Assembly: GCA_021740845.1 (NCBI GenBank)
Contig: JAIOYZ010000029.1
Span: 1-44,641, forward strand
Origin: Bacteroidia bacterium
Lineage (GTDB): Bacteria > Bacteroidota > Bacteroidia > UKL13-3
Length of the DNA: 44,641 nt
Direction of reading: 5' to 3'
Numbering within the stretch: the stretch's first letter is position 1; each line of letters starts with the position of its first letter. The position numbers were made by a program, and so were the translations under genes. The notes beneath the pieces were generated by a model. The model ran no database searches, was not told the DNA's origin, and was given only the letters and a program-made list of their open reading frames with translations. Positions 354-22,131 of this stretch are shown here, in pieces.

Positions 354-767
354 ATGAAGCCGATTTATTTCTTTCTTCCTTTGGTTTGTGCATTTGCTAT
401 TTTTAGCTTTCGCATTTATAGCACACCCATTCCCAATCAACCTCAATTTGACGAAAATACATTAGGCCAAATTGCGAAAGGAAAATTGGTTTATCAAAAA
501 TACAATTGCCAAAGCTGCCATCAAATATATGGCTTGGGAGGTTATCTCGGCCCAGATTTAACCAACTGTATGAAGGAAGGTAGAAATGGAGAATTGCTCA
601 TAAAAACACTTACTCAAGTTGGCACCACACAAATGCCAAGTTTTCCAATTTCAGAATCGGAAATGGAAAACCTAATTGCATTTTTCAAAGCCTTGGATCA
701 AACCGGAAATAGCGACCCCAGACATTTTATTGTTTCATCCAACGGAATGATTGCAGAACATGAATAA
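354..767 (+). CDS. norC: NorC-like membrane-anchored mono-haem cytochrome c subunit of nitric oxide reductase
   Basis: The protein has 137 residues. Residues 5-22 form one N-terminal hydrophobic segment (uncleaved anchor). A single class-I cytochrome c domain follows, with haem motif CQSCH at 52-56, a GxGGxxGPDL segment typical of NorC just after it, and the probable axial Met at residue 94 (QMPSFP). The size, single anchor and single haem match NorC of cytochrome-c-dependent NO reductases, which passes electrons from periplasmic donors to the NorB catalytic subunit. The gene overlaps the norB start by 8 bp, which implies translational coupling. Start: ATG at 354, 15 bp after the preceding stop. 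The assignment rests on this pairing as much as on the sequence, because mono-haem cytochromes are a broad family. Confidence 0.85.
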   Translation: MKPIYFFLPLVCAFAIFSFRIYSTPIPNQPQFDENTLGQIAKGKLVYQKYNCQSCHQIYGLGGYLGPDLTNCMKEGRNGELLIKTLTQVGTTQMPSFPISESEMENLIAFFKALDQTGNSDPRHFIVSSNGMIAEHE

Positions 768-2121
768 GTGGGAAACCAATTTTGCCAAGCTCTTTATAAA
801 TACAGCATTGTTAATGCTTTTGGCTGGAATACTTTTGGGTTGTTTGGCAGCGGCATCGTATATCTGGCCTGGGTTTTTAAAACAAGATTTAGGCTTTATT
901 TCCCTCAGACCCATGCATGTTAGCGCGGTACTTTTTTGGATATTATTAGGAGCCAGCGGCTGTGTATATTTCGGGTTGAACCAAAATTTGCCGAATTCTA
1001 TTAACAAGCATTTAGCCTTAACCCAATGGGCATTGTGGATTATTGCTATAATGGGAATTTTCTTTTCTTATTTTCAGGGAAAGTTTGGTGGAAGAGAATA
1101 TTGGGAGTTTGAACCCATTTGGGCTTTACCCATTTTAGCTGCTTGGATTTTGTTCTTAATTCAGTTTTTGGTTCAAGCCAGAAAAATGAAAAACTGGCCC
1201 GTATATGTTTGGATGTGGATGACAGGAATATTGTTTTTTGTTTTCACCTTCACCGAAAATTATTTGTGGCTAATTCCAGGATTTAGAAAAGAAATAATTG
1301 GAGATTTAACCATACAATGGAAGGCCAACGGCTCCATGGTTGGTTCCTGGAATCAAATACTTTATGGCACTTCCATTTTCTTAATGGATAAGATTAGTGG
1401 CAACAACAAAACCTCCACCAGCAAGGTGGCGTTTTTCCTATATTTCTTAGGCTTTTTCAATCTGCTATTCAACTGGGGACATCATATTTATACCTTGCCA
1501 ACTCAACCCTATATCCGACCAATTTCTTATGCCGTTAGTATGACCGAATGGGTATTTTTTGCTAAGACTATTTATACTTGGAAAAATCAATTATCGGAAG
1601 CTAAAAAACACTTTTCATTTTTCCCTTATCGCTTTTTATTGGCCACTAATTTTTGGGTTTTCTTGAACCTAATTCAAGCCTTGTTTATGTCGATACCAGC
1701 ATTGAATTTATATACACATGGAACGCATATTACGGTTGCACATGCCATGGGAACAACTATAGGCATCAATACCATGATTATTTTTGCAACAGCATTTATG
1801 TTGTATACCAATCCATGCTATAATTTCTTGCAAGGCAACAAACAACTCAATAGATTATTTTGGTTATTGCAACTTGGTTTATTAGTATTTTGGGTATCCT
1901 TATTGGGAGCAGGAGTAGAAAAAGGACTCTGGCAAATGGCAGAATCCAGAGGAAATTTTGGGGATATGATGAACCATTTACGACCTTGGTTTATTGGCTT
2001 TTTTATTGGAGGAATTCTCTTAAGCATTGCTATTATTGGTTTGGCCTTGAACCTAATTTGGGCTTATATTTTTTGTAGAAAGTACCCTGAAAAAGAGCAG
2101 GAACTGAAGCCTATAGAATAA
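760..2121 (+). CDS. norB: NorB-like haem-copper-oxidase-family subunit with non-canonical metal ligands
   Basis: The protein has 453 residues and about 12 hydrophobic helices. Preferred start is ATG 760; an upstream in-frame TTG at 751 would add three residues. Conserved cNOR landmarks: helix-II His in RPMHVSAVLFW (H53, low-spin haem), GREYWEFEP (111-119, Ca/haem-propionate region), tandem His in WGHHIY (H241, H242), Glu in SMTEW (E263), and THGTHITVAH with H328 as haem b3 ligand. Departures: where cNOR has HLWVEGVWE (first FeB His plus Glu), this protein has NGSMVGSWN (190-198), so His becomes Asn and both Glu are lost. The second low-spin-haem His (HGH motif) is Met330 (HAM). The fold and the partner NorC argue for electron transfer to NO or a related N-oxide, but the FeB site cannot be canonical. 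The frame is intact with no sign of decay. Confidence 0.8.
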   Translation: MNKWETNFAKLFINTALLMLLAGILLGCLAAASYIWPGFLKQDLGFISLRPMHVSAVLFWILLGASGCVYFGLNQNLPNSINKHLALTQWALWIIAIMGIFFSYFQGKFGGREYWEFEPIWALPILAAWILFLIQFLVQARKMKNWPVYVWMWMTGILFFVFTFTENYLWLIPGFRKEIIGDLTIQWKANGSMVGSWNQILYGTSIFLMDKISGNNKTSTSKVAFFLYFLGFFNLLFNWGHHIYTLPTQPYIRPISYAVSMTEWVFFAKTIYTWKNQLSEAKKHFSFFPYRFLLATNFWVFLNLIQALFMSIPALNLYTHGTHITVAHAMGTTIGINTMIIFATAFMLYTNPCYNFLQGNKQLNRLFWLLQLGLLVFWVSLLGAGVEKGLWQMAESRGNFGDMMNHLRPWFIGFFIGGILLSIAIIGLALNLIWAYIFCRKYPEKEQELKPIE

Positions 2122-2141
2122 AATTTTCTTTGTAAAAAAAC

Positions 2142-2558
2142 ATGTTGAGTATCAGTAAAAAATTTAGGTTTGAAGCCGCACACGCCATTTTCAATTACAA
2201 TGGCCCTTGTAAAAATATTCATGGTCATAGCTATATTTTATGGGTTAGTATTCAAGGACAAAAAGACCCAGAAACCCAAATGCTGCTAGATTTTAAATTA
2301 TTAAAAAACATTGTAGAAGACAATTTTGTAAAGCAAGTAGACCATGCCATTATGCTTAATAAGAACCATCCAGAAAGTAATTTATTTACGGATTATACAG
2401 GCAAAACCTATTGGCTAGAAGGAGAACCCACAGCAGAAAATTTAATTGAACACGCAGCGAATTTGATTCAAAACGCGTTACCCAACAACGTAAAACTAAG
2501 TAAACTAAAACTCTACGAAACCGAATCATCTTATGTAGAATGGGAGGCAGATTTGTAG
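2142..2558 (+). CDS. queD: 6-carboxy-5,6,7,8-tetrahydropterin synthase / 6-pyruvoyl-tetrahydropterin synthase family (QueD)
   Basis: The 138-residue length is typical for the T-fold QueD/PTPS family. Zinc ligands are visible as H14 in FRFEAAH and H27/H29 in NIHGHSY, with the catalytic-type Cys23 (GPCKNIHGH). The VDHAIML segment (catalytic Asp-His) and the C-terminal ETESSYVEW motif (pterin-anchoring Glu) also fit. QueD converts dihydroneopterin triphosphate to carboxytetrahydropterin, the first committed step toward queuosine. Without the other que genes next to it, a pterin role cannot be excluded. The start is ATG 2142, 20 bp after norB. A TTTG lies 9 bp upstream of the ATG (2129-2132), so a very short leader is possible. 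Confidence 0.88.
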   Translation: MLSISKKFRFEAAHAIFNYNGPCKNIHGHSYILWVSIQGQKDPETQMLLDFKLLKNIVEDNFVKQVDHAIMLNKNHPESNLFTDYTGKTYWLEGEPTAENLIEHAANLIQNALPNNVKLSKLKLYETESSYVEWEADL

Positions 2559-2621
2559 TATTGGGGTATAAATTTCAAATTGTTTGATAGCTTATCAAGT
2601 TGTCCCAATTTCACTTAAAAT

Positions 2622-2951
2622 TCAAAAGAAACCTGTCTCTGTTTTCCTTTTCTTTATCGTTTTTATGATATAATTTTCATCACCCATAACACTGTAATCA
2701 CTTAAATTAACTTGTGGTTTTGGTTCAATATTAAACCTTCTTCCCAACCCTCCATCGTACTCCCATAACTCCGCAGACATAATATTTCCAACACCTGTCT
2801 ACTCATCATCCCCTTCTTGCCCATTAAAACGGAAGAGGTAGGTGATTGTGTCGGATTTTAGAGGTAGTTTTTTGCCCTTAGTGCATTTATTGGGAAATGC
2901 ACCAAAATGGCTGAAATGCTTGTTATGTATGCCAAAGCGAAGGTTTTGCAT
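2622..2951 (-). pseudogene. Remnant of an Rhs/YD-repeat protein C-terminal core (one in-frame stop)
   Basis: Read on the minus strand from ATG at 2951, the frame gives 50 codons starting MQNLR and ending FNGQEGDDE, then TAG (2799-2801). It then stays open in the same frame to a TGA at 2622-2624. The post-stop part contains TGVGNIMSAELWEYDG, GLGRRFNIEPKPQ and SDY, which correspond to the Rhs-associated core (FNGxExDxE..., YDxRLGRWxSxDP..., SPYxxxxNNP). So this is a piece of an Rhs-type polymorphic toxin core broken by a nonsense codon and lacking the rest of the protein. Its first ~40 residues resemble those of the ORF at 6193-6459. Its 5' part and upstream DNA belong to the ~345-bp repeat described separately. 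Expression as a short 50-residue peptide is possible but unlikely to be functional. Confidence 0.65.
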
Positions 2952-3213
2952 TAATAAAACAATTGAATTATTACCTCATCGAATTGAAAAAGCAAAATAG
3001 GCAATAAAATCATTAAAGAAGGAAGATTTTAAACTTTGACAAATATTTATAACAGGTACATCAGGTCTTTTTTGGTTCAAACCGAAATTTAATGTGGCTG
3101 ATTCTGGAAAGGCTTATTAAAATTAAGACTTGGTTTGCAATTTTTACTCGCGAGCTTAAGCTCGTTTCATAGTCGGACGAAGGCATCGTTTACGCCCAAC
3201 GGGGAAATATTTT
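2868..3213. repeat. Copy 1 of a ~345-bp intergenic repeat ending in a structured palindromic element
   Basis: This stretch is closely similar by eye (most positions identical) to 6371-6715. It includes the first ~30 codons of the Rhs-remnant ORF on the minus strand. The right end holds a perfect 14-bp palindrome CGAGCTTAAGCTCG (3151-3164), then a small hairpin gacga-aggca-tcgtt (3176-3190), then a conserved cgcccaacgggga tail. A shorter third copy of the palindrome-hairpin end is at 8491-8546. The rest of the gap between queD and 3377 (about 3214-3376) shows no coding frame or clear signal. Confidence 0.8.
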
Positions 3214-3376
3214 TCTGACAAGTTATAATGAACCAAAGTTATGATTGATTAAAATAGAATAACTGGATTGGTATAAAACAAACAGCAGTCTATAACTTAT
3301 ATTGGAAGGGGAATTTTCTTTTTATAGCAAATGCCAAAGTTATTTTTTGCATTCTACCATGCCAATTTTTTTTATT

Positions 3377-5002
3377 CTATTTGTTTCCGCTACTTAGCAA
3401 TTTTAATATTCTATTGCCAGCTTCTGTTAACTGATAAGTTTGATTTGGATGTGTTTTTTCATCTGGAAATTCCATCTTAACCCAGCGATTTTCTATTAAT
3501 GGGTCAAGATATTTTGCCCTATTTTTTGATTGGTTACTTAAATCCATTTTTTCAAACAATTCACTTCTTTTCATTCTATCGGTTAGAATTTCTAAAATTT
3601 CATAAACTCTATCGTGAATCTCTTTATTAATTATTTCTATGGCCAAATTTCCAACTCCATTAATAGCTCCGTTACCAGCTCCGTTACTAAAAGCCAAAAT
3701 CTCCTCTAAGTCTTTGAAAACAGGGACATTTACTCCGTTACTAGCTCCGATACTCATGCCATCATGTGCAGGCAAAGTAGCAAGCACATAGGTACTTGTT
3801 TCATCCGTATCAAAAGAAGGAGCAGGGGAACCATTATCAGTCATTGCTTTATAAATAGTTGGAAATCCCGTGCCCCTACCTTCTGTTAAATGTAATTCTT
3901 TTAGAAAATCACCAATACGTCTGTTTCTATATTCTCTGGCTACAATTCGCCTGTGGGTTTTTAAAACTTTGGTGTTAACTGGAGGAACTGGCCCTGGGAA
4001 ACTTAATATTTCAATTTTATCGGGCCATATCTGTATTTCAATTGGGCTGCCCAATTCATAACTTTTATGAAACACGGCATTAGACAGCGATTCCTCAACT
4101 GCTGCATAAGGGAAATTATAGAACCTGTTGGCTTCCGCTTTGCTTGCAACTTTTACTACTTGTTCTGCAATAATATTGGTTTGAAAAAACGATAAAGTAT
4201 CGCGCAATTGCTTTTGCAAAGGCCCTTTAAAATAATATTCCTTATAGTTTGTGCTGGTATTGTCTTTATGCCAAACCAGTTCAATCCAAGCTCTATTAAA
4301 AAAACGTTCAGGCTCTTTACAGAAAAAAAGTAATCCAACATTTACTGGACGTACATTTTCATTTGATCCTTTTGCGATAAACATAGTTCTACATAAATCT
4401 TCAAACGACATGGATTTACTTTCTTCATATAAATCACTCTTTACTTCTTGTAGATGTGCTTGAATCAATCCTAAATCTAAATCCTGAATGCTTGCCTGAT
4501 TGTTTACCCTATCGTCAAATGGAATACGAGCGGTTAGCTCTTGTAAGCGCCTTAATATTTCGCCTCTGGCTATTATACTGTTTGAACCTACACGTACATA
4601 AGCTTCACGTGTGCCGCTATTACTTCCTAAAGAAGATGGAGCTGTGTAAATGCGATTATCTCCAGAAGGACACCACAAAACTAAAATTTGTTGCTCTTGC
4701 AATATAAATGGTTGGGAAATAGGAAAATAGTTTGGCTGGACTTTGTTACCAAGCTCAATAATTTTCTTTTGAATGGAATCTACTTGCTTCTGTTGTAATC
4801 CAGCTGGAGGAAAAATGGGTTGTCCATCATTTTCAGCAATACCAATAATAATGTAACCACCACCCCAATTGTGTAAGTCATTGGCAAATGCGCAAATCGA
4901 ATGAATTACATCCTCTGGATTCCAGCCTTGCTTAAACTCTAGCCGCTCCCACTCAATGGTATTGCCGTTAACTAATTCTTCAATATTAATTGGGAGTGCC
5001 AT
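3377..5002 (-). CDS. AlbA_2 / Schlafen-type (AAA-4) putative ATP-binding protein with C-terminal winged helix
   Basis: The protein has 541 residues. Residues ~15-140 match the AlbA_2 (divergent AAA-4) domain: the opening EWERLEFKQGW, then CAFANDLHNWGGGYIIIGI, then a YVRVGSNS strand. Residues ~290-410 look like the HATPase_c_4 part of COG2865 regulators, with YPFAAVEE-type text (FPYAAVEESLSNAVFHKSY) and EGRGTGFPTIYKAM. A low-complexity Asn-Gly linker (NGAGNGAINGVGN, ~440-455) precedes a C-terminal ~80-residue winged-helix-like region. Members are annotated as transcriptional regulators or ATP-dependent helicases and often occur in accessory or defence neighbourhoods; the reaction is unknown. 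The small ORF at 5067-5303 lies 64 bp upstream on the same strand and may be co-transcribed. Confidence 0.75.
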   Translation of the reverse strand: MALPINIEELVNGNTIEWERLEFKQGWNPEDVIHSICAFANDLHNWGGGYIIIGIAENDGQPIFPPAGLQQKQVDSIQKKIIELGNKVQPNYFPISQPFILQEQQILVLWCPSGDNRIYTAPSSLGSNSGTREAYVRVGSNSIIARGEILRRLQELTARIPFDDRVNNQASIQDLDLGLIQAHLQEVKSDLYEESKSMSFEDLCRTMFIAKGSNENVRPVNVGLLFFCKEPERFFNRAWIELVWHKDNTSTNYKEYYFKGPLQKQLRDTLSFFQTNIIAEQVVKVASKAEANRFYNFPYAAVEESLSNAVFHKSYELGSPIEIQIWPDKIEILSFPGPVPPVNTKVLKTHRRIVAREYRNRRIGDFLKELHLTEGRGTGFPTIYKAMTDNGSPAPSFDTDETSTYVLATLPAHDGMSIGASNGVNVPVFKDLEEILAFSNGAGNGAINGVGNLAIEIINKEIHDRVYEILEILTDRMKRSELFEKMDLSNQSKNRAKYLDPLIENRWVKMEFPDEKTHPNQTYQLTEAGNRILKLLSSGNK

Positions 5003-5066
5003 TATTAAATTATAGTATTTTGATTTACTCCACAGAGATTATTTTGATTCTAATGTTTAGTCCAAT

Positions 5067-5303
5067 TTATTTCTTTAGCCATTTCTTCACCTTTTTCATA
5101 ACTTCTACATCATGTGTTCCGTCACCTCTATCGGCTTCTTTAATGCCCTGCTCTAATGAAGCTCTTACATCATCAGGTAGACTCTCTAGCCAGTTTGCCT
5201 CTGGGTGTGTATCAAAAATAGCTTTGATATGGTTGATTATTCCTTTGTCTTGGGGATCAATGATTTTCTTAGCTAAATCTAGTTTTATCGTGTCGATGCT
5301 CAT
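5067..5303 (-). CDS. Small antitoxin-like protein without an adjacent toxin
   Basis: The 78-residue protein begins MSIDTIKLDLAKKIID and ends in a Lys-rich helix (VMKKVKKWLKK). The arrangement is typical of Bacteroidota addiction-module antitoxins: N-terminal helical segment, a middle LPDDVRASLEQGIKEADRGDGTHD, then a C-terminal helix ending in WL(K/R)K. The usual RelE/ParE partner would start within a few bases of its stop; instead the AlbA_2-type gene begins 64 bp away. It is therefore either an orphan antitoxin or a small partner of the AlbA_2 protein. No promoter was clearly recognised. The 221-bp gap up to 5525 shows nothing recognisable. Confidence 0.6.
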   Translation of the reverse strand: MSIDTIKLDLAKKIIDPQDKGIINHIKAIFDTHPEANWLESLPDDVRASLEQGIKEADRGDGTHDVEVMKKVKKWLKK

Positions 5304-5524
5304 TTGTTCATTTTTTCAATTCAAATCTACATAAAAATCCGTTTATAAAATTAACCCAATTGATGATACTTGCTAACCTGTTTGGGTTGAATTCATGTAA
5401 GTTATAGTTTAACTTTTTAAACTACTTTTGTTAGAATATACATAATCGCATTTATATCTATTACACTGAGCACATAAATGGCACACTCCAACAGTAAAAA
5501 TCAATAGTGATACTTCCCAAAAAT

Positions 5525-6184
5525 TCATTCCCATCCTTTACTAAATTTCAAAAATGGATTGCGTTCACAATCTTCAAAAAGCTTGAATCCCTTGAGTTCC
5601 GAATCAGAATAAAAGACAAAACCCATTGCGGGAATAAAATAAACATTTGAACTTTTGTAGTTCGGATCAAAATCCAATTTCCCCAATTTCTGAAGTTTAA
5701 AACGGATGTTTTCATAGCAATCAATTTCATCCGTTACAAAATAGGTGATTTTATAATGGTAAACCTTTTGCCCCTGGATAGTTAATACGGTGCGGGGTTC
5801 ATACTCCTCAAAACAAATGAGTTCACCAAATGCTTTAGAGTGAACGGTCTTGTAATAGTATGTAAATAAACGATTCCTGAAACAGTATGAAGAGAATACA
5901 GGATAGACTATTCCATCTGCTATAAACCCTAAAGTATCCCCTTTAAGCACCAATTTCAGATCATAAGCCGCGTTATCCTCAAAAGATCCTATAGAGCTGT
6001 CCAGATAGCATATTCCTGTTTTTACCACATAGCTGTTTGAATCCAACGTTGTCAGATAAGCTTCCCCGGAAAAATCATCCACCGCGTAAATGCCTTTATA
6101 CAACCTTTCGCAATGCAACGTCTGACCACTAGCCTGATTGAAGACTATAAAAATACACGCAACAATGAAATTAAAAGTCCTCAT
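5525..6184 (-). CDS. Secreted protein of unknown function (candidate immunity protein of an orphan toxin module)
   Basis: The 219-residue protein has a clear N-terminal signal peptide (hydrophobic FNFIVACIFIVFNQASG, probable cleavage before QTLHC). The mature part is rich in Tyr, Phe and Asp with short beta-like segments. I do not recognise a family. It starts 8 bp after the stop of the ORF at 6193-6459, which carries an N terminus related to the Rhs remnant. The same order (short non-secreted ORF, then a signal-peptide protein within a few bases) recurs at 7447-7656/6746-7444. That layout is what displaced toxin-tip/immunity pairs of Rhs systems look like, so a periplasmic immunity role is an inference from context only. 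Confidence 0.6.
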   Translation of the reverse strand: MRTFNFIVACIFIVFNQASGQTLHCERLYKGIYAVDDFSGEAYLTTLDSNSYVVKTGICYLDSSIGSFEDNAAYDLKLVLKGDTLGFIADGIVYPVFSSYCFRNRLFTYYYKTVHSKAFGELICFEEYEPRTVLTIQGQKVYHYKITYFVTDEIDCYENIRFKLQKLGKLDFDPNYKSSNVYFIPAMGFVFYSDSELKGFKLFEDCERNPFLKFSKGWE

Positions 6185-6192
6185 TATTCTGG

Positions 6193-6459
6193 TTAAATTT
6201 CTTCCGATTCTTGGTATTCCATTTCACATATTGCTTTATATACTTCTCTATCTCCTTTCGTCATATCCAGCGGCGCATTCATATATTTCACTCTATATTG
6301 AACCTGTTTCATGTAGTTCAGATCTTTGTCTTTAAAAGCGAAGAGGTATTCTCCAGTATCGAATTTAAGGTGCGATTTTTTGCCCTTAGTGCATTTATTT
6401 GAAAAAGCACCAAAATGACTGTAAGGCTTGGCATTTATGACAGTGCGAAGATTTTGCAT
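6193..6459 (-). CDS. Short ORF with Rhs-remnant-like N terminus (possible detached toxin tip)
   Basis: The 88-residue protein starts MQNLRTVIN and shares about 35 N-terminal residues with the Rhs remnant at 2622-2951 (SHFGAF-NKCTKGKK, then DT--YLF-F). It then diverges completely (KDLNYMKQVQYRVKYMN..., ending QESEEI). The shared N-terminal segment lies inside the ~345-bp repeat, so the ORF is a fusion of repeat-borne and unique sequence. A TGA lies just upstream in frame, so the protein cannot begin earlier. It is 8 bp from the secreted protein gene and probably co-transcribed with it. It could be an orphan C-terminal toxin fragment or non-functional debris. Confidence 0.45.
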   Translation of the reverse strand: MQNLRTVINAKPYSHFGAFSNKCTKGKKSHLKFDTGEYLFAFKDKDLNYMKQVQYRVKYMNAPLDMTKGDREVYKAICEMEYQESEEI

Positions 6460-12171: not shown

Positions 12172-12918
12172 ATGAAAAAGCAATTAATTTTTAAGCTAAT
12201 TGGTCTATTTGTAATCGGCCAATTCTTGGGCTCCTGCAAAAAAGATATCACTCCAATTTACCAAGCACCAAATACTAATTTAAAGATAAATTGGACGCAT
12301 TCAATTGATGGAGTTCCCCTCACAATGGATACTATAATGTATGTTAACCAATCGGGTTCAAATTACTCCGTTACTCGCTGCCAATATTATTTGTCGGGTT
12401 TTGAATTAACCAAATTAGATGGAAGCAAAACAAAATTAGAAGGCATTGTTTATGGGGATGCAAGACAAGAAACACACGAAATAAAATTTAACGGTTTTCC
12501 AGCTGGTACGTATACTGGAATAGAATTTTTGATTGGCTTAGCACCCGAGCAAAATATTTCTAATTCACTAGAATCAACCGAAGGCAATATTAATATGGCC
12601 TGGCCAGACGTAATTGGTGGTGGTTACCACTTTTTAAAGTTTGAAGGATATTACTTAGATACTGCCAATCTAAAAAAAGGGTTTACCATGCATATTGGCA
12701 CCAACGATATGTTGATTCACCACCAGAAAATCTCATTTTCATTTACCGTAAATGAAAATGAAAACAGTACTATAAACCTTAACATGAATCTCAATGAATG
12801 GTTTAAAAATCCATACACCTATAATTTCAATACAGATGGAAATTATACCATGGCAATTCCAACATTAATGACTTTACTTAAAAACAATGGAAGCGATGTA
12901 TTTAGCATTAAAGAATAA
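12172..12918 (+). CDS. MbnP-like copper-associated lipoprotein
   Basis: The 248-residue lipoprotein has a lipobox Cys at 22 (FLGSCKKD). The domain matches the MbnP family: CQYYLSGFEL, GIEFLIGLAPEQN near the middle, NMAWPDVIGGGYHFLKFEGYY (W144), then FTMHIG, and the C-terminal LNMNLNEWFKNP (W210). In characterised MbnP-MbnH pairs the di-haem partner oxidises a specific MbnP tryptophan to kynurenine, and MbnP binds copper. This gene overlaps its MbnH-like partner by 23-32 bp. Trp144 and Trp210 are the candidates for modification, but which one applies is not established here. The location close to the copper-dependent nos cluster fits a periplasmic or outer-membrane copper-handling role. Confidence 0.8.
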   Translation: MKKQLIFKLIGLFVIGQFLGSCKKDITPIYQAPNTNLKINWTHSIDGVPLTMDTIMYVNQSGSNYSVTRCQYYLSGFELTKLDGSKTKLEGIVYGDARQETHEIKFNGFPAGTYTGIEFLIGLAPEQNISNSLESTEGNINMAWPDVIGGGYHFLKFEGYYLDTANLKKGFTMHIGTNDMLIHHQKISFSFTVNENENSTINLNMNLNEWFKNPYTYNFNTDGNYTMAIPTLMTLLKNNGSDVFSIKE

Positions 12919-13945
12919 AACAATCCTACTTGGATTGATGGTTTTATTAGCAGCTAGTTGCAAAAAAAATGAAACCCAGCAAACTGAAAAAACTTACCCA
13001 ACACCTTATTCATTAACAATTCCAAAAGGGTTTCCTCAGCCAGTATTATATGCAGATAATCCTTTAACAGAAGAAGGAATTCTATTGGGTAAAATGTTGT
13101 ACGGTGATAGCATTTTATCTACCAATGGAAGGGCTTGCATTAGTTGTCATCAGCCGGCTTTATCCTTCTCCTCTCCTATGTATCATTCGTGGAATGGCTT
13201 TCATTACAGTGTGCCGCCGCATATTAATTTGGCATTTAAAAAAGCATACAATTGGGATGGCTCTCAAGGTTGTTTAGACACTCTTGCCATGGGAGATTTT
13301 GCTCCAGAATTCTTTAATGCAAACTACGATGGTTTGGTTCAAAAATTAAAGGCCCACCCTATTTACCCAAGTTTGTTTAACAAAGCATTTGGTGTAATAG
13401 ATTTGAACCAATTGAGTTATACAGAATTGAAAAGAGATATTGCTTATTCCATAGGGCAATACCTTAGAACTAAAATTAGTTCCAACTCTAAGTTCGATCA
13501 ATACAGAAGAAAGGAAGTATTACTGGATAACAATGAGTACGAAGGATATGTTATTTTCTTTTCCGAAAAAGGAGATTGTTTTCATTGTCATGGCGAGCCT
13601 TTATTCTCGGATCAAGAATACCACAACAATGGCTTGGGAGATACTTATATTGGCTACGACCAGGGAAGAACTATGGTTACCAATAAAGAGGAAGATTTAG
13701 GAAAATTCTATACGCCAACTTTACGTAATATTGAACAAACTGCACCTTATATGCACGATGGCAGGTTAAAAACTTTGGAAGAAGTGGTTGAGTTTTACAA
13801 CTCGGGAGTAAAAGATGAAGTGCATGTTGACCCTTTAATGACAAAAACCAACGGCACAAAAAATCTAAACCTAACTCCACTTGAGAAAATGCAATTGGTT
13901 GCATTTTTAAGGACATTAACGGATAAAACTTATTCAACTTATTAA
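12896..13945 (+). CDS. MbnH-like di-haem cytochrome c peroxidase/MauG-family lipoprotein
   Basis: The ~349-residue protein starts at ATG 12896 (an in-frame ATG at 12887 would add three residues) and has a lipoprotein signal ending LLAASCKK. Two c-type haem motifs are present: CISCH about 60 residues after the signal and CFHCH in GDCFHCHGEPLFSD in the second half. The C-terminal TPTLRNIEQTAPYMHDGRLKTLEEVVEFYNSG is diagnostic of the bacterial di-haem peroxidase/MauG superfamily. Next to an MbnP-like gene it is best read as MbnH, which oxidises a tryptophan of MbnP. A stand-alone H2O2-reducing peroxidase is the alternative. It is followed by a strong bidirectional terminator. Confidence 0.85.
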   Translation: MYLALKNKTILLGLMVLLAASCKKNETQQTEKTYPTPYSLTIPKGFPQPVLYADNPLTEEGILLGKMLYGDSILSTNGRACISCHQPALSFSSPMYHSWNGFHYSVPPHINLAFKKAYNWDGSQGCLDTLAMGDFAPEFFNANYDGLVQKLKAHPIYPSLFNKAFGVIDLNQLSYTELKRDIAYSIGQYLRTKISSNSKFDQYRRKEVLLDNNEYEGYVIFFSEKGDCFHCHGEPLFSDQEYHNNGLGDTYIGYDQGRTMVTNKEEDLGKFYTPTLRNIEQTAPYMHDGRLKTLEEVVEFYNSGVKDEVHVDPLMTKTNGTKNLNLTPLEKMQLVAFLRTLTDKTYSTY

Positions 13946-14693: not shown

Positions 14694-15122
14694 ATGTTTT
14701 CAAAAACTTGCGAGTACGCAATTCGGTCTGTAATAATTATCTGCCAGCATTCGAAAGAAGGTAATAAAACCAATGTGAAGGAAATTTCTAAATTGGCTGA
14801 GGTACCAGAACAATATATTGCCAAAATACTTCAAACCTTAACTAAAGCCCAAATTGTTGGGTCAATTAAGGGGCCAGGAGGTGGTTTTTTTATTGACCCC
14901 AGCAAAGAAAAAATTAAATTAATAGAAGTTGTAAAAGCCATTGATGGAGAATCTTTATTTACTGCATGTGGTTTAGGATTAAAGGAATGCTCAGAGAAAA
15001 ATCCTTGTCCATTGCATACAAATTTTAAAACCATTAGGAACAACATAAAGAAAATGTTGGCCGACACTACTATTGAGGATTTGAGCGACAAGCTATCTGA
15101 ATCTTTGTTCAAAAGAAAATAA
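14694..15122 (+). CDS. Rrf2-family Fe-S transcriptional regulator, NsrR-like
   Basis: The 142-residue protein is a single Rrf2 winged-helix domain: MFSKTCEYAIRSVIIIC at the start, the EISKLAEVPEQYIAKILQTLTKA recognition region, and the GPGGGFFI wing. It has three cysteines at 92, 99 and 105 (ACGLGLKECSEKNPCPLH), the ligand pattern of NsrR/IscR-type [Fe-S] sensors. The next gene is a truncated haemoglobin and the operators lie in front of nos genes. NO sensing through the cluster (NsrR role) is therefore the most economical reading; an IscR-like redox or Fe-S role is less likely in this context. It starts an rrf2-haemoglobin-dioxygenase operon with 1-bp gaps. Confidence 0.88.
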   Translation: MFSKTCEYAIRSVIIICQHSKEGNKTNVKEISKLAEVPEQYIAKILQTLTKAQIVGSIKGPGGGFFIDPSKEKIKLIEVVKAIDGESLFTACGLGLKECSEKNPCPLHTNFKTIRNNIKKMLADTTIEDLSDKLSESLFKRK

Positions 15123-15508: not shown

Positions 15509-16423
15509 ATGGAAAACTTATTAAATCAACTAAAAACTAAATTACAAGCATCAGGACAAGATCCAGAAAATTACCTAAAGGGATTGCAACACAATAGAGC
15601 AATTAACTATTGGGAATACGTGCAAGTAGATACTTTATTATCCTTACAAAACCCAAGAACAAATTTTAAAGATGAAACCATATTTATAGTTTACCATCAA
15701 ATAACAGAATTGGTTTTAGGATTAATTAAACACGAATTGGAGCAACTCTGCAACGACGATTTAAGCACTGAATTGTTTACCGAAAAAATCAATAGAATGA
15801 TTCGGTATACCGATTTACTTATTAGCTCATTTAGCATCATGAACAAAGGCATGAGCTATGAAGACTACAATCAATTTAGGTTAAGTCTATCGCCAGCAAG
15901 TGGATTTCAATCTGCACAATTTAGGTTTATAGAATTAATGTGCACCGATATTGATTTGTTGATTCATCCTCATTTTAGAAAGAACTTAAAAGAAGATAGT
16001 ACACTTAAAGAGAAATTCTCTTTTGTTTATTGGCAAGAAGCTGGTTACAACAGGGAAGCCGATACCAAGACCAAAACTTTAAGTGATTTTGAGAAAAAAT
16101 ATTTGGATTCCTTTATTGCTTTAGCAGAAAAAATGAAGGTGAATAATCTTCGTCAGAAATACCAAAACCATTTGGTTCAAACCGAACCCAACTTAAAAGA
16201 AGAACTACTAAAAAGCTTGCGGGCATTTGATGTAAAATACAATATTGAATGGCCAATGGTACATTTAGAGACCGCCAGAACCTACCTAAAAGCAAAGGGC
16301 GAAACCAAAACCGCAACCGGTGGCAGCTCTTGGGAAAAATACTTACACCCAGAATTTCAACGCCGAATTTATTTCCCAGAATTATGGTCGGAAGAAGAAA
16401 TGGCGAATTGGGGGAAGGAATAA
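15509..16423 (+). CDS. kynA: Tryptophan 2,3-dioxygenase family haem protein
   Basis: The 304-residue protein has the TDO hallmarks: INYWEYVQVDTLLSLQNPR, ETIFIVYHQITELVLGLIKHEL (distal-pocket His), YNQFRLSLSPASGFQSAQFR (substrate and haem contacts), and late FDVKYNIEWPMVHLETARTYL followed by TGGSSWEKYL. TDO opens the indole ring of L-Trp to N-formylkynurenine. It is the third gene of an operon led by an NsrR-like regulator and a truncated globin, which is not its usual kynurenine-pathway context. A CGGTTTGAACCAA motif is embedded in the gene (16172-16184). A strong stem-loop follows 118 bp downstream. Confidence 0.93.
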   Translation: MENLLNQLKTKLQASGQDPENYLKGLQHNRAINYWEYVQVDTLLSLQNPRTNFKDETIFIVYHQITELVLGLIKHELEQLCNDDLSTELFTEKINRMIRYTDLLISSFSIMNKGMSYEDYNQFRLSLSPASGFQSAQFRFIELMCTDIDLLIHPHFRKNLKEDSTLKEKFSFVYWQEAGYNREADTKTKTLSDFEKKYLDSFIALAEKMKVNNLRQKYQNHLVQTEPNLKEELLKSLRAFDVKYNIEWPMVHLETARTYLKAKGETKTATGGSSWEKYLHPEFQRRIYFPELWSEEEMANWGKE

Positions 16424-16540: not shown

Positions 16541-16576
16541 GTCATAAAAAAGGATAAATATATCCTTTTTTATGAC
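16541..16576. terminator. Perfect 16-bp stem-loop, probable bidirectional terminator
   Basis: The arms GTCATAAAAAAGGATA (16541-16556) and TATCCTTTTTTATGAC (16561-16576) pair perfectly around a 4-base loop AATA. The T-run is inside the right arm, and the hairpin sits between the dioxygenase operon and the nos promoter. A terminator is most likely. A large operator is the alternative because the symmetry is perfect. Confidence 0.65.
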
Positions 16577-16623
16577 ATTTATCATAGGCATCACTGATGC
16601 AAGTCATGGAAACCCAATATTCA

Positions 16624-16649
16624 TATTTCGGACCTTTACATCCGAAAAT
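16624..16649 (+). promoter_or_regulatory. Rrf2/NsrR-like operator upstream of the nos cluster
   Basis: The inverted repeat TTTCGGAC-CTTTAC-ATCCGAAA (16626-16647) ends 17 bp before the ATG of the cytochrome gene. Arms, spacing and the asymmetric inner C/A pair equal those of the site at 14587-14608. Flanks (ATA on the left, AAT on the right) are also shared, while the inner 6 bp differ. This suggests both are binding sites for one regulator, most simply the Rrf2 protein encoded between them. Confidence 0.7.
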
Positions 16650-16664
16650 AAACACAATAAAAGT

Positions 16665-17138
16665 ATGAAAAGAATAATCCTAATTAGCGCTACTTGTATT
16701 GCATTTTGTGCACTGGTGGCCTGCGGAGACAACAATCAAAATTCAGATGCAACTTCAAACACAGCAACAACCACAACTGAAAACAAGGCGGAAGACGATG
16801 CAAAAGGTGTTGGCAAATTTACTTCGGTTGAATTAACAAATCCTTTGGATCAAAACATGGTTACAGCAGGTAAAGGTATTTATGATGTTAAATGTGGCTC
16901 GTGCCATAGGTTAACTGATGTAAAATTGGTAGGCCCAGGTTGGAAAGGTGTTACCAGCAGAAGGAAACCAGAATGGATTATGAATTTCTCAACCAATGTG
17001 GAAGAAATGCTAAACAAAGATGCAAATGCTATGGCCATGTTGGAGGAATGTTTGGTGCGCATGCCCAATCAAAATTTAAGCGACGACGATGCTAGAAACA
17101 TCCTTGAGTTTATGAGAAGTAACGATGGTGAAAAATAA
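16665..17138 (+). CDS. Mono-haem cytochrome c lipoprotein of the nos cluster
   Basis: The protein has 157 residues from ATG 16665. This start is chosen because it directly gives a lipoprotein signal, MKRIILISATCIAFCALVACGDN; an earlier in-frame ATG at 16572 would run through the operator and terminator hairpin. A disordered Ser/Thr/Asn linker leads to one class-I haem domain with CGSCHRL and GPGWKGVTSRR. The domain also has a Met-rich distal part (EECLVRMPNQNLSDDDARNILEFM). Such cytochromes accompany clade II nosZ and probably deliver electrons to NosZ. It is first in the nos transcript, 23 bp before nosZ. Confidence 0.88.
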   Translation: MKRIILISATCIAFCALVACGDNNQNSDATSNTATTTTENKAEDDAKGVGKFTSVELTNPLDQNMVTAGKGIYDVKCGSCHRLTDVKLVGPGWKGVTSRRKPEWIMNFSTNVEEMLNKDANAMAMLEECLVRMPNQNLSDDDARNILEFMRSNDGEK

Positions 17139-17161: not shown

Positions 17162-19144
17162 ATGAAAACAAAAATTAATCCAGTACTTACCATGGCAATT
17201 GTAATGGTAGCATTATTGGGAACAAGTTGCAAAAACAAAGGAACTAAATCTGGCTCTGGCAAAGATGCTGCAGAAAAGGTTTATGTGGAACCTGGCAAAT
17301 ACGATGAATTTTATAATATTGTTTCAGGCGGTTTTAGTGGTCAGGTTGCCATTTATGGAATTCCATCTGGCAGACTGTTTAAAGTAATTCCTGTTTTTTC
17401 TCAAGACCCACAAACAGGTTGGGGATACAATGAAGAAACCAAACCTATGTTGAATACGTCTCACGGTTTTGTTCCTTGGGATGATGCTCACCATCCTGCT
17501 TTATCAGTTACCGCAGGTGCGCACGATGGCCGTTGGGCATTTATAAATGGTAACAATACTCCGCGGATTGCACGTATTGATATGAAAACATTTCGTACAG
17601 TTGATATTATAGAAATACCCAATAGCAGTGGCAATCACTCTTCACCATTTATCACACAAAATTCGGAGTATGTTGTTGCTGGAACACGGTTTAGTTATCC
17701 TATGGACGATGATAATTCAAATCCAGATGTTGCTATAAGTACTTACAAGCAAAATTTTAAAGGCACCGTAAGTTTTATTTCGGTTGACCCAACAAGTGGA
17801 AATATGGGATTAGGCTTCCAAGTAATGGTACCTGGATTTAATTTTGATTTAGCTCGTGCAGGTAAATTAAAATCTGGCGATTGGGTGTTTTTCTCTTGTT
17901 ATAATAGCGAACAAGCCAATACACTTTTAGAGGTTAATGCTTCTCAAAAAGATAAGGATTTTATCATGGCGGTGAATTGGAAGAAATGTGAAGAGTTAAT
18001 TAAAGCTGGAAAATTCATTACCAAAAAAGTTAAATATGCTCACAATACTTACAGTGATGAAGTTCATTCGGCAAAAAGTGAAATATTAACAGAAGCAAGA
18101 ATGATTGACCCAAAAGCCAACCCTGGATTAGTTTACTTTATGCCTTGCCCTAAATCTCCACATGGTTGTGATGTTGACCCAACAGGTTCTTATATCATTG
18201 GCTCAGGTAAATTGGCTGCTGTTATTCCTGTTTTCTCGTTTGACAAAATGATTAAAGCAATTGAAAACAAAACTTATGAAGGTGAATTTGATGGAATTCC
18301 AGTTTTAAAATACGATGCTGTATTACACGGTGAAGTTAAGAAACCAGGCCTTGGTCCTTTGCATACCGAATTTGACGGAAAAGGTTTTGCATATACTTCT
18401 ATGTTTGTTTCTTCTGAAGTGGTAAAATGGAATATTGAAAACTTAGAAGTTGTAGACCGCGTTCCTACCTACTATTCTGTTGGCCATTTAAGCATACCTG
18501 GCGGACCAACTACTAAGCCTTGGGGGAAATACATGATTGCTTATAATAAAATTACCAAGGACAGATATTTACCTACTGGACCAGAATTATGTCAGTCGGC
18601 ACAATTGTACAGCATTGAAGGTGATAAAATGAAATTGCTTTTAGATTTTCCAACTATAGGTGAACCACATTATGCAGAAGCAATTCCAGCGGAGTTAATT
18701 ACCAAAAACAGTGTGAAGTTCTTTAAAATAGAAAACAACAATCACCCCTATGTAGCCAAAGGAGAAGGTGAAGCAAAAGTAGTAAGAAAAGGAAATGAAA
18801 TACATGTTTATATAACCGCAATCCGTTCGCACTTTACACCAGATAATATTGAAGGCGTAAGAATAGGCGATGTGGTTTATTTTCATGTAACCAACCTAGA
18901 ACAAGATTGGGATGTGCCACATGGATTTGCTGTGAAAGGTGCTAACAATGCAGAATTATTAATAATGCCAGGCGAAACTTCAACTCTTAAATGGGTTCCA
19001 GATAGAGTTGGTGTATTCCCAATATATTGTACCGATTTCTGCTCGGCATTGCATCAAGAAATGCAAGGATATATTAGAATTTCGCCAGCTGGATCTACAG
19101 TTCCTTTAAGTTTCTCTACTGGAGAAACAGCAGATGAAAAATAA
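17162..19144 (+). CDS. nosZ: Nitrous oxide reductase, clade II (Sec-type), lipoprotein form
   Basis: The 660-residue enzyme reduces N2O to N2 in the periplasm. Its N terminus is a Sec/lipoprotein signal with Cys23 (LLGTSCKNK), not a twin-arginine signal, which marks the atypical clade. The beta-propeller domain carries CuZ histidines, including DDAHHP (110-111) and further His in NSSGNHSSPF and KSPHGCDVDP. The C-terminal cupredoxin has the CuA motif C623-x3-C627-x3-H631-x2-M634 (YCTDFCSALHQEM) plus the DVPHGFAV His. The order cytochrome-nosZ-membrane/nosL-nosDFY is that of clade II clusters, and nosR is absent as expected. A stem-loop follows the stop. Confidence 0.98.
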   Translation: MKTKINPVLTMAIVMVALLGTSCKNKGTKSGSGKDAAEKVYVEPGKYDEFYNIVSGGFSGQVAIYGIPSGRLFKVIPVFSQDPQTGWGYNEETKPMLNTSHGFVPWDDAHHPALSVTAGAHDGRWAFINGNNTPRIARIDMKTFRTVDIIEIPNSSGNHSSPFITQNSEYVVAGTRFSYPMDDDNSNPDVAISTYKQNFKGTVSFISVDPTSGNMGLGFQVMVPGFNFDLARAGKLKSGDWVFFSCYNSEQANTLLEVNASQKDKDFIMAVNWKKCEELIKAGKFITKKVKYAHNTYSDEVHSAKSEILTEARMIDPKANPGLVYFMPCPKSPHGCDVDPTGSYIIGSGKLAAVIPVFSFDKMIKAIENKTYEGEFDGIPVLKYDAVLHGEVKKPGLGPLHTEFDGKGFAYTSMFVSSEVVKWNIENLEVVDRVPTYYSVGHLSIPGGPTTKPWGKYMIAYNKITKDRYLPTGPELCQSAQLYSIEGDKMKLLLDFPTIGEPHYAEAIPAELITKNSVKFFKIENNNHPYVAKGEGEAKVVRKGNEIHVYITAIRSHFTPDNIEGVRIGDVVYFHVTNLEQDWDVPHGFAVKGANNAELLIMPGETSTLKWVPDRVGVFPIYCTDFCSALHQEMQGYIRISPAGSTVPLSFSTGETADEK

Positions 19145-20193: not shown

Positions 20194-21424
20194 AAAACTA
20201 TCACTTTTCTTTTTCCTAATCTGTTATTCGCTCTTTTCTTTAAAGGCAAATCAAATTAGGGTATTTCCAAAGAACGGGATAAACCCAATTCATGCAGCAT
20301 TGCTAATAGCAAAGGATTACGATACTTTATTGGTTCAAACCGGAACCTATGCAGAAGGAAATATTTTGCTTGAAAAACCTATTACATTAATTGGAATTAA
20401 CTACCCATGTATTGATGGGAAATTTAAAGGAGAGGTGTTTACTGTAAGTGCAAATTATGTGACCATTATTGGGTTTAGAATCATCAATTCTGGCTATTCT
20501 GATTTAAATGATTTTGCTGCCATTCAATTGATGAATAGCGATTTTGGGAAATTTATAAACAACAAACTAGAAGGCAATTATTTTGGAATTTTCCTACACA
20601 ATTCTCATTACAACAGAATTGAAAAAAATACAATAATTGGTCCAGCCCGAGTTCAAAATAAAGTGGGCAATGGAATTCACCTTTGGAATTCTAGTCATAA
20701 TTTAATTCTAAACAACCATATTAAAAAGCATAGAGATGGACTCTATTTTGAATTTTCTAGGCAAGTACTAATTGCCAATAATACCAGTGAAGAAAATTTG
20801 AGGTATGGCTTGCATTTTATGTTTTCAGATTCGGATGTGTATTACATGAATAGCTTTATTAATAACGGTGCTGGAGTGGCTGTTATGTATAGCCACCATG
20901 TTACTATGGCTAAAAATAAATTCATTCACAATTGGGGAAGTTCGGCCTATGGATTATTGTTAAAAGACATTCGAGATAGCAAAGTATTAAACAATGAATT
21001 TACCAAAAATACAGTGGCCATTTACATGGATGGTTGTAGTAGATCTGAGTTGATAAAAAACAATTTTAACAATAATGGTTATGCTTTAAGAATGCAATCT
21101 AATTGCGATGATAATTTAATTCGATTGAATAATTTTAGAGCAAATACTTTTGATTATGCCACCAATGGATTTATGGTACTCAATAGTTTTAATTACAATT
21201 ATTGGGATAAATATACTGGCTACGATTTAGAAAAAGATGGAATTGGCGACCAAGGTTATAGACCAATGAATTTACTCACTAAGATTATAGAAGAATATCC
21301 AACTACCATTGTTTTGTTGCAAAGTTTTTTATCTGATTTATTAAACTTATTAGAAAAAGTTTTGCCTTCTCTTACCCCAGAAAATTTAATTGACAATAAC
21401 CCAATGATGAACCCAATTTCATGA
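20186..21424 (+). CDS. nosD: NosD, periplasmic copper-sulfur cluster maturation protein
   Basis: The 412-residue protein has a signal peptide (LSLFFFLICYSLFSLKA) followed by a right-handed parallel beta-helix of the carbohydrate-binding/CASH type. The beta-helix shows repeated N-x-(I/F)-xxN turns (NRIEKNTIIG, HNLILNNHIKKHRDG, KNKFIHNWGSSAYGLLLK), and the C-terminal FNYNYWDKYTGYDLEKDGIGD is characteristic of NosD. It works with NosF and NosY to supply sulfide for the CuZ site. It overlaps upstream by 8 bp and nosF by 4 bp (ATGA). A CGGTTTGAACCAA motif is embedded at 20330-20342. Confidence 0.95.
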   Translation: MNKKLSLFFFLICYSLFSLKANQIRVFPKNGINPIHAALLIAKDYDTLLVQTGTYAEGNILLEKPITLIGINYPCIDGKFKGEVFTVSANYVTIIGFRIINSGYSDLNDFAAIQLMNSDFGKFINNKLEGNYFGIFLHNSHYNRIEKNTIIGPARVQNKVGNGIHLWNSSHNLILNNHIKKHRDGLYFEFSRQVLIANNTSEENLRYGLHFMFSDSDVYYMNSFINNGAGVAVMYSHHVTMAKNKFIHNWGSSAYGLLLKDIRDSKVLNNEFTKNTVAIYMDGCSRSELIKNNFNNNGYALRMQSNCDDNLIRLNNFRANTFDYATNGFMVLNSFNYNYWDKYTGYDLEKDGIGDQGYRPMNLLTKIIEEYPTTIVLLQSFLSDLLNLLEKVLPSLTPENLIDNNPMMNPIS

Positions 21425-22131
21425 TTCAAATTAAGGATTTACATAAGAACTACGGCAAACATCAAGTTTTAAAAAACATAAATGTGGAACTTGAACGCGG
21501 CATGGTTGCTGGTTTAATTGGTCAGAACGGCACTGGTAAAACCACACTTATAAAAAGCATTTTAGGTTTGACCCAATTTCAAAAAGGAGATATTTTGGTG
21601 GAAGGTGTTTCTGTAAAAGCTGGACCAGAATACAGAAACAATATTGGCTATATGGCTCAAATGGGAAGGTATCCAGAGAACATGAATATAGCCCAACTAT
21701 TTGATATGATGAAGAAAATTAGAACAATTGATAAAAGGGATGAAGAACTTTATGAAAAATTTCAATTGCAAAAAATTGCACATCAAAATTTGGGTCAATT
21801 AAGTGGAGGAACCATACAAAAAGTGAGTGCCGCATTGGCATTTTTGTTCAATCCAGATATTCTAATTTTAGACGAACCTACAGCAGGTTTAGACCCCATT
21901 GCTTCTGAAATATTAAAAGAAAAAATTATCAAAGAGAGCACAAAAAAATTAATCTTAATTACTTCTCATATCTTAAACGATTTAGACGAAATAGCCTCTC
22001 ATGCCTTATTCTTACAAGAAGGCTCCCTCCTATTTTTTGAACATATTAAAAGTCTTAAAGAAAAAAGCGGACATCAAAAACTTGGAAAAACCATTGCAGA
22101 AATTATGTTGGAAAGGGAATTGAAGAAATGA
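21421..22131 (+). CDS. nosF: NosF, ABC transporter ATPase
   Basis: The 236-residue nucleotide-binding subunit has Walker A GQNGTGKTTL, a Q-loop region YMAQMGRYP, ABC signature LSGGTIQKV (slightly variant, with Thr-Ile-Gln after the Gly pair), Walker B ILILDEPTAGLDP and the switch His in LITSHIL. It pairs with NosY and NosD to energise maturation of the NosZ CuZ centre. It is coupled on both sides by 4-bp ATGA overlaps. Confidence 0.96.
   Translation: MIQIKDLHKNYGKHQVLKNINVELERGMVAGLIGQNGTGKTTLIKSILGLTQFQKGDILVEGVSVKAGPEYRNNIGYMAQMGRYPENMNIAQLFDMMKKIRTIDKRDEELYEKFQLQKIAHQNLGQLSGGTIQKVSAALAFLFNPDILILDEPTAGLDPIASEILKEKIIKESTKKLILITSHILNDLDEIASHALFLQEGSLLFFEHIKSLKEKSGHQKLGKTIAEIMLERELKK

Follow-up and report, generated by a model that had tools for sequence, protein, structure and literature searches.

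The window analyzed here is a stretch of 44,641 nucleotides, positions 1 to 44,641 of contig JAIOYZ010000029.1 in the Bacteroidia bacterium assembly GCA_021740845.1. Near its start lie a norC-like and a norB-like gene, the latter encoding a protein that resembles the NorB subunit of cNOR, a nitric oxide (NO) reductase, and differs from it at the residues that hold the active-site metal, FeB. The norB-like open reading frame (ORF) is open and overlaps the 3' end of the norC-like ORF, and an earlier note on this DNA, made from its letters alone, had rightly called the gene intact and coupled to norC. The closest PDB sequence match of the NorB-like protein is cNOR (4xyd, 53 bits), followed by a cbb3 oxidase (6xkw, 25 bits). 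Residues are counted from the TTG codon at 751 and thus carry the earlier note's numbers plus 3. In the list below, fractions and residue counts refer to 93 family sequences.

354..767, plus strand: NorC-like membrane-anchored cytochrome c (CQSCH; GGYLGPDL motif), Pfam Cytochrome_CBB3/Cytochrom_C
751..2121 (start TTG 751 or ATG 760), plus strand: NorB-like subunit of the non-canonical family, 456 amino acids, PF00115 at 117.5 bits
916..918, plus strand: H56 codon, low-spin heme ligand, kept (93/93)
1255..1257, plus strand: E169 codon, invariant acid (93/93) opposite a non-acid in cNOR, candidate replacement ligand
1327..1329, plus strand: N193 codon, FeB His position of helix VI (N 70, Y 20, S 1, G 1, L 1)
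1339..1341, plus strand: V197 codon, FeB Glu position (V 89, I 2, T 1, S 1)
1351..1353, plus strand: N201 codon, second helix-VI Glu position (N 93/93)
1480..1485, plus strand: H244-H245 codons, helix-VII FeB/CuB histidines, kept (93/93)
1741..1743, plus strand: H331 codon, heme b3 proximal ligand, kept (93/93)
1747..1749, plus strand: M333 codon, second low-spin heme His position (M 93/93)

Active-site residues and family relationships

We gathered 103 family sequences, of which 93 were distinct, including the window protein; most were 39 to 65% identical to it. A profile-profile alignment with canonical cNOR (hhalign 99.8%, E 6e-30) and a MAFFT alignment with 4xyd and two Bacteroidia cNORs placed the same residues opposite the cNOR ligands, with the FeB His at N193, the FeB Glu at V197, the second Glu at N201, and the low-spin His of the HGH motif at M333, just as the earlier note had aligned them. 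Four of the six histidines of the heme-copper sextet are kept, while in 93 of 93 sequences the helix-VI His is absent and the second low-spin His is Met. The family has 41 invariant columns; invariant residues are H56, E169, Q189, K191, N201, H244, H245, E266, H331, and M333. Also retained are R115 and E116 (93/93), E119 (91/93), N319 (92/93), and H323 (93/93), whose equivalents in cNOR lie at the calcium and the heme propionates, as described in a passage of PMC4816578.

The earlier note had named a His elsewhere in helix VI as the observation that would speak against its alignment. That helix spans residues 187 to 216 in the AlphaFold 2 (AF2) model. None of the 93 sequences has a His, Glu, Asp, or Cys within residues 187 to 205, and a single sequence has a His at the very last residue of the 187 to 216 stretch. 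An alignment-shift artifact was rejected on the composition of residues 187 to 205. The His-to-Asn change described for the window protein is real there and does not extend to the family, in which the position is N, Y, S, G, or L, and M in a Cloacibacterium copy discussed below; as a common trait it was discarded. As the alignments have it, what the members share is the absence of His, not the presence of Asn. At the low-spin heme, His residues in columns 318 to 353 occur at 323 (93 sequences), 326 (90), 331 (93), and 353 (1). With this distribution, M333 presents itself as the most natural choice of second low-spin ligand. Heme ligation by M333 would give the His/Met low-spin heme that the note had proposed, a likely consequence. 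The broader claim of the note, that the active site is non-canonical and that ordinary NO reduction may be doubted, is supported as well.

Family membership was scored with a profile (A1) in a class sample of 247 Bacteroidia genomes that were at least 90% complete. It picked out 56 places, spread over 55 genomes, that score at least 415 bits; the scores below them drop to 67 bits, the level at which canonical cNOR and cbb3 begin. The 55 carriers fall into 27 families. Frames were open at 55 of the 56 places, the exception having an in-frame TGA (G130); a pseudogene or frameshift was thereby dismissed for the window gene and for those 55 places. In a second sample of 247 genomes drawn across the whole phylum, the only place outside Bacteroidia above the canonical and cbb3 score range was a 202-amino-acid ORF with HTM at the heme pair. 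All genomes read were from Bacteroidota, and among those sampled the family has so far been seen only in this phylum, almost only in the class Bacteroidia. Plasmid homologs, among the matches listed (30 of 145; 5 of 12), were 24 to 27% identical and bore the annotation of a cbb3-type subunit I or of an NO reductase; all were below 60%, with no near-identical one among them. A literature search returned no title or abstract opening that named such a family, which by itself does not show its absence from the literature.

In a tree of 39 rows, 23 of them family members, the family was monophyletic with support of 100/100. It was placed beside cNOR plus qNOR at 92/79, which is not firm. Grouping it with cNOR to the exclusion of qNOR was rejected by the approximately unbiased (AU) test (p = 0.0006), and the order of the family, the NOR clade, and cbb3 was left unsettled (p = 0.139 and 0.206 for the alternatives); the program warned of long branches. 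The gene is not a damaged one but belongs to a large family that is monophyletic and stands apart from the cNOR clade. Placement inside a characterized NOR clade was the second outcome that the earlier note had named as refuting; compared with the cNOR and qNOR sequences sampled, the family lies outside both. The B-family eNOR, sNOR, gNOR, nNOR, and bNOR, which descend from B-family oxygen reductases, likewise reduce NO or have been proposed to, and the sites of some are altered. The newer NOR families were reportedly defined by Murali et al. in 2024.

The best sequence and fold matches of the window protein are C-type. The AF2 model (predicted local distance difference test score of 82) matched cbb3 3mk7 with a Z score of 39.0 (2.9 Å, 431 residues aligned) and cNOR 4xyd with a Z score of 38.2 (3.0 Å, 427 aligned), so as far as a predicted model can tell, the fold comparison is a tie. 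Against the cbb3 subunit CcoN, the likeness is one of fold: cbb3 keeps six histidines and the family four, the partner of the family is NorC-like, and CcoN-like proteins score about 34 to 72 bits with the family profile versus at least 415 for full-length members. With cNOR (PDB 3o0r, 4xyd) the family shares the two-subunit layout of NorC and NorB, the NorC motif, the fold, the low-spin helix-II His, the b3 His, the helix-VII His pair, and the Arg, Glu, Asn, and His residues near the calcium and propionates. It differs in the loss of the helix-VI His and FeB Glu, the Asn at the second Glu, the Met at the low-spin His, its separate clade, and a genomic setting that is linked more to NosZ than to nir genes. 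Judged from sequence, it is a separate family of NorC-coupled C-type heme-copper proteins that should not be read as ordinary cNOR.

Genomic company

Neighborhoods were examined in the best 80 of 556 loci encoding a relative of the window protein. All 80 have a NorC-like ORF immediately ahead of the family gene, and these ORFs carry CxxCH (80/80), GGYLGP[DE]L (74/80), and MPx[FY] (76/80). Relatives of NorQ and NorD, searched with Sinorhizobium meliloti queries, were found in four loci, each time beside a separate canonical norCB, many loci being cut short. Canonical norCB occurs in five loci, the four with NorQD and a fifth (L088) with norC and a piece of norB at a contig end. According to a passage in PMC9976466, cNOR requires NorQD for the insertion of FeB and qNOR does not.

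One association is with NosZ, the nitrous oxide (N2O) reductase. In the class sample, NosZ was present in 46 of 55 family carriers versus 42 of 192 other genomes (odds ratio 18, p = 8e-17); as the genomes are related by descent, this and the other p-values are indicative only. The 88 NosZ genomes include one under the cutoff. The family gene and nosZ are at most 16 kb apart in 10 of the 46 NosZ-bearing carriers, and NosZ of at least 40 bits is present in 8 of the 80 loci, matches of 21 to 24 bits (L045, L070, L087) having been left out as chance. The nitrite reductase genes nirK/nirS were found in 11 of 55 carriers. The NirK count of 20 genomes comprises 18 over the curated cutoff, G102 (295.0 versus 296.3), and G236 (two pieces). 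Four matches that were weaker, though still at E ≤ 1e-20, were omitted (G136, G246, G043, G061); with G043, a family carrier, nir would be present in 12 of 55. Canonical cNOR was found in 12 genomes, including one 192-amino-acid piece (G084), and it accompanied nir in 11 of them. Within NosZ genomes, the family is equally common with nir (9/16) and without it (37/72). The 72 NosZ genomes without nir include 37 with the family, 1 with a canonical cNOR piece, 6 with a qNOR-like gene (5 of which also have the family), and 33 with none of these. In an older survey, a passage of PMC4250227 puts nor at only 17% among 24 Bacteroidetes that possess nosZ but lack nir, so the family has not always been scored as nor in surveys. 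Among the 11 nir-bearing carriers, six are without a cNOR or qNOR-like gene and hence without another C-type NOR, which argues for NO handling by the family. Other NO sinks do exist, because neither the family nor cNOR or qNOR occurs in three of the nir genomes.

A second association is with NO dismutase (NOD). NOD-type genes occur in 11 of the 80 loci, and in a twelfth (L101) the copy is cut by the contig end and its signature is unreadable; the stored flanks of the 80 loci gave no match to an ordinary qNOR. These neighbors are of qNOR length and in the 11 loci carry both NOD changes, having Asn for the second helix-VII His and Gln for a Glu (as given in a passage of PMC3413370). The 11 qNOR-like genomes of the class sample were split by reading into 7 NOD-type and 4 ordinary. 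The family is present in 5 of the 7 NOD genomes versus 50 of 240 others (p = 0.007), both genes being on one contig each time, and in 1 of the 4 ordinary qNOR genomes. Counting two loci cut by contig ends, the family gene shares its locus with a NOD-type gene or canonical norCB in 17 of 80. A study of nod neighborhoods in lake metagenome-assembled genomes (PMC13386854) does not mention the pairing in the passages at hand. The earlier note had likened the altered residues to those of NO dismutases, a comparison that does not survive at the residue level. The NOD His-to-Asn change sits on helix VII, at the second His of the HH pair, and not on helix VI, so the two sets of changes hit different ligands: NOD loses that His and another Glu and keeps the helix-VI His and Glu, whereas the family does the reverse, retaining HH and E266 in 93 of 93. 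The heme-c NorC partner in 80 of 80 loci opposes the likeness too, as NOD is described in PMC3413370 as apparently unable to take external electrons. Moreover, qNOR and NOD are single chains of about 750 to 960 amino acids, in contrast to the 456-amino-acid family protein and its NorC; their likeness lies in the shared, not firmly supported superfamily branch of the best tree and in the neighboring NOD-type genes. As separate observations, L154 has two NOD-type proteins side by side (4034-6436 and 1429-3798, both plus strand), one of them divergent (AHNFYW, HATSFTHAHAH), and L157 (1385-3661, plus strand) encodes a qNOR-like protein with HGY at the expected HGH heme pair.

In seven loci the NOD and norC-like genes stand head to head, with 68 to 73 bp between first-Met starts, and from these gaps we defined a palindrome, AAGGAYA-N4-TRTCCTT. 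With at most two mismatches it precedes 17 of the 80 norC-like genes versus 5 of 1,200 control windows, and 10 of the 17 are among the 73 loci not used for its definition. At one mismatch or fewer, 1.42 Mb held 20 sites versus 1 in the reversed sequence. At two mismatches or fewer, it was found upstream of the nos cytochrome in 2 of 14 cases, of Rrf2 in 3 of 40 (9 of 40 at three or fewer, versus 34 of 1,200 controls), and of PTPS in 0 of 22 family loci. An FNR/CRP-like box before norC was tried and dropped, being no more frequent there (4/80) than in control windows (99/1,600). The other features of the window and the head-to-head loci are the following.

14694..15122, plus strand: Rrf2-type regulator, PF02082 at 99 bits
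16541..16576, no strand: 36-bp palindrome, near-perfect as judged by eye, that overlaps the nos cytochrome start; its core, AAGGAYA-N4-TRTCCTT, occupies 16550-16567
16572..17138, plus strand: cytochrome c ahead of nosZ
17162..19144, plus strand: NosZ, Sec-dependent N2O reductase, TIGR04246 at 918.8 bits
19201..22895, plus strand: nos accessory genes, NosL-like, NosD, an ORF at 21421-22131 presumed to be NosF, and an ABC-2 permease (NosY-like)
L083, L087, L090, L095, L098, and L103, ~9.5 kb, and L101, ~0.85 kb (copy cut): head-to-head NOD loci, over the palindrome

The nosZ gene lies 15 kb downstream of the gene pair, as the earlier note had it, and is followed by NosL-like, NosD, and permease genes; that the cluster is complete, as the note had claimed, is likely, the ABC-ATPase ORF among these genes being presumed to be NosF. 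The NosL (22.8 bits, just under) and permease (23.1 bits) matches fall below their cutoffs. By its profile name, the window NosZ is presumably of clade II. No NirK or NirS was found in the window genome at E ≤ 1e-20, and two further PF00115 proteins occur there in frames of 615 and 740 amino acids. The one perfect palindrome core in the window stands just ahead of the nos cytochrome. The Rrf2-type regulator, a putative NO sensor, is a candidate reader of the palindrome, and an Rrf2 homolog lies within the stored flanks of 40 of 80 family loci. An MbnP/MbnH-type pair and a tryptophan 2,3-dioxygenase-like protein (12172-13945; 15509-16423) flank the Rrf2 and globin genes before the nos cluster; MbnP homologs occur in 14 and MbnH homologs in 15 of the 80 loci. 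After the norB-like gene comes a PTPS/QueD-like gene (2142-2558, plus strand), with homologs in 23 of the 80. Neighbors whose names would be assigned by eye (ScdA/Ric, tryptophanase, acyl-CoA synthetase) were kept out of the evidence.

Cloacibacterium is a cultured genus in which the family may be studied. Strain CB-01 is credited in PMC11168931 with "cNor" but with "minor NO reductase activity"; section 9 of the cited study (PMC9239227) states no NO rate for it, the data standing in a figure. According to a passage of PMC11879220, one branch of the genus has cnorB and another lacks it. Cloacibacterium genomes were sought among 395 genomes with the published genus primers, and both primers matched the 16S gene perfectly in two, G875 and G758. 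The forward primer alone also matched G566 and G763 (three to four mismatches at the reverse site) and G853 (reverse site outside the stretch taken). G875 encodes two PF00115 proteins only, a 760-amino-acid cbb3-like protein and a family member, the latter keeping all 18 listed invariants checked and having M at the FeB His position; the only PF00115 protein of G758 is the cbb3-like one. NosZ was not matched in the 20 kb around the G875 family gene, the rest of that genome not having been searched for it. Because those two are its only PF00115 proteins, the Cloacibacterium cnorB most likely belongs to this family, as read from the G875 sequence rather than from CB-01's own gene. The family has thus probably been labeled as an ordinary enzyme in at least one genus.

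Possible functions and their implications

The ties to NosZ, NOD, and cNOR and the shared palindrome point to NO metabolism as the field of action. From residues and gene neighborhoods, we give an even chance to an enzyme that is fed by NorC and handles NO at a rebuilt site, perhaps by reducing it slowly. Electrons would enter via the NorC heme c and pass to the His/Met low-spin heme b, and NO would bind at heme b3 beside a metal with the helix-VII His pair and a substitute residue as ligands, for which last E169 is a candidate; alternatively, the metal may have no full third ligand. The kept Arg, Glu, Asn, and His residues at the calcium and propionate positions could still feed protons. The likely role would be NO scavenging in the form of a slow or high-affinity reduction of NO to N2O, in N2O respirers that mostly lack a nitrite reductase of their own.

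Several observations weigh against this assignment. A cNOR without FeB is inactive, as stated in a passage of PMC9976466, and the family has lost the FeB-holding residues; NorQ/NorD were matched in just four of the 80 loci, all of which have a separate canonical norCB, though qNOR needs none. Only minor NO reductase activity is reported for CB-01, whose genus carries the family, and by the criteria used nirK/nirS were not found in 44 of 55 carriers. The window's own norC has no copy of the palindrome (five mismatches at best), the window holds one site at two mismatches or fewer where chance gives a mean of 0.93, and none at that threshold lies upstream of nosZ (0/8), globin (0/8), or MbnP (0/14) in family loci. 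Only that a perfect copy stands at the nos cytochrome speaks for the window palindrome, the chance of that being uncomputed. Three of the seven head-to-head gaps are identical in sequence, so these loci may be one lineage, and the p-values overstate the case because the genomes share ancestry.

It is possible, if rather less probable, that the complex is no NO reductase but binds NO or O2 in electron transfer or sensing, aiding N2O respiration or NO dismutation, with a ligand on heme b3 and no catalytic nonheme metal. The absence of the FeB His and Glu in 93 of 93 sequences, a tie to NosZ stronger than that to nir, the minor activity reported for CB-01 (PMC11168931), and the 17 loci in which a second reductase would be redundant beside NOD or norCB all fit such a role. 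The invariant helix-VII histidines and b3 ligand, unneeded for ligand binding alone, do not fit it, and the six nir-bearing carriers without a cNOR or qNOR-like gene need NO removal, though B-family NORs and other sinks could provide it. The same six carriers, the NorC partner, the cNOR-like fold, and the kept calcium and propionate residues would also suit an ordinary cNOR-like NO reductase working at normal rates, with other residues completing the FeB site. We consider this unlikely, given that every member seen lacks the FeB His and Glu and has Met for the low-spin His, that the family lies outside the cNOR clade, that in the 80 loci, many of them cut short, NorQD was seen only beside another norCB, and that the activity reported for CB-01 in PMC11168931 is minor.

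Two further readings are highly improbable. Dismutation of NO to N2 and O2 by the family protein itself is suggested by the neighboring NOD-type genes, but both NOD substitutions are absent, there is no qNOR-type fusion, heme-c electron input is present, and NosZ, with which the family co-occurs, is needless for dismutation. A degenerate relic of cNOR, equally improbable, would account for the lost metal ligands, but conservation this strict, with 41 invariant columns in 93 sequences and open frames at 55 of 56 places, opposes it.

Returning to the NO-handling enzyme, we tentatively propose, short of an even chance, a third NO-processing lineage beside cNOR and qNOR. Its dinuclear site would have two His ligands or be free of metal, and its low-spin heme would be His/Met; it would apparently share one regulon with N2O reductase and NO dismutase, would handle NO without a classical FeB site in N2O respirers lacking nir, and would have been taken for cNOR in some genomes. 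The distinction matters since surveys take cnorB as a source of N2O; if the family is no NO reductase, or hardly one, the genotype of many Bacteroidota N2O sinks has been misread. This could explain why CB-01, a proposed soil inoculant, is credited with "cNor" and yet reportedly shows minor NO reductase activity (PMC11168931). If the family does reduce NO, the FeB Glu and the third His would be dispensable, which would bear on how the N-N bond is formed. Either outcome would be informative, and Cloacibacterium, a genus in culture, lends itself to the test.

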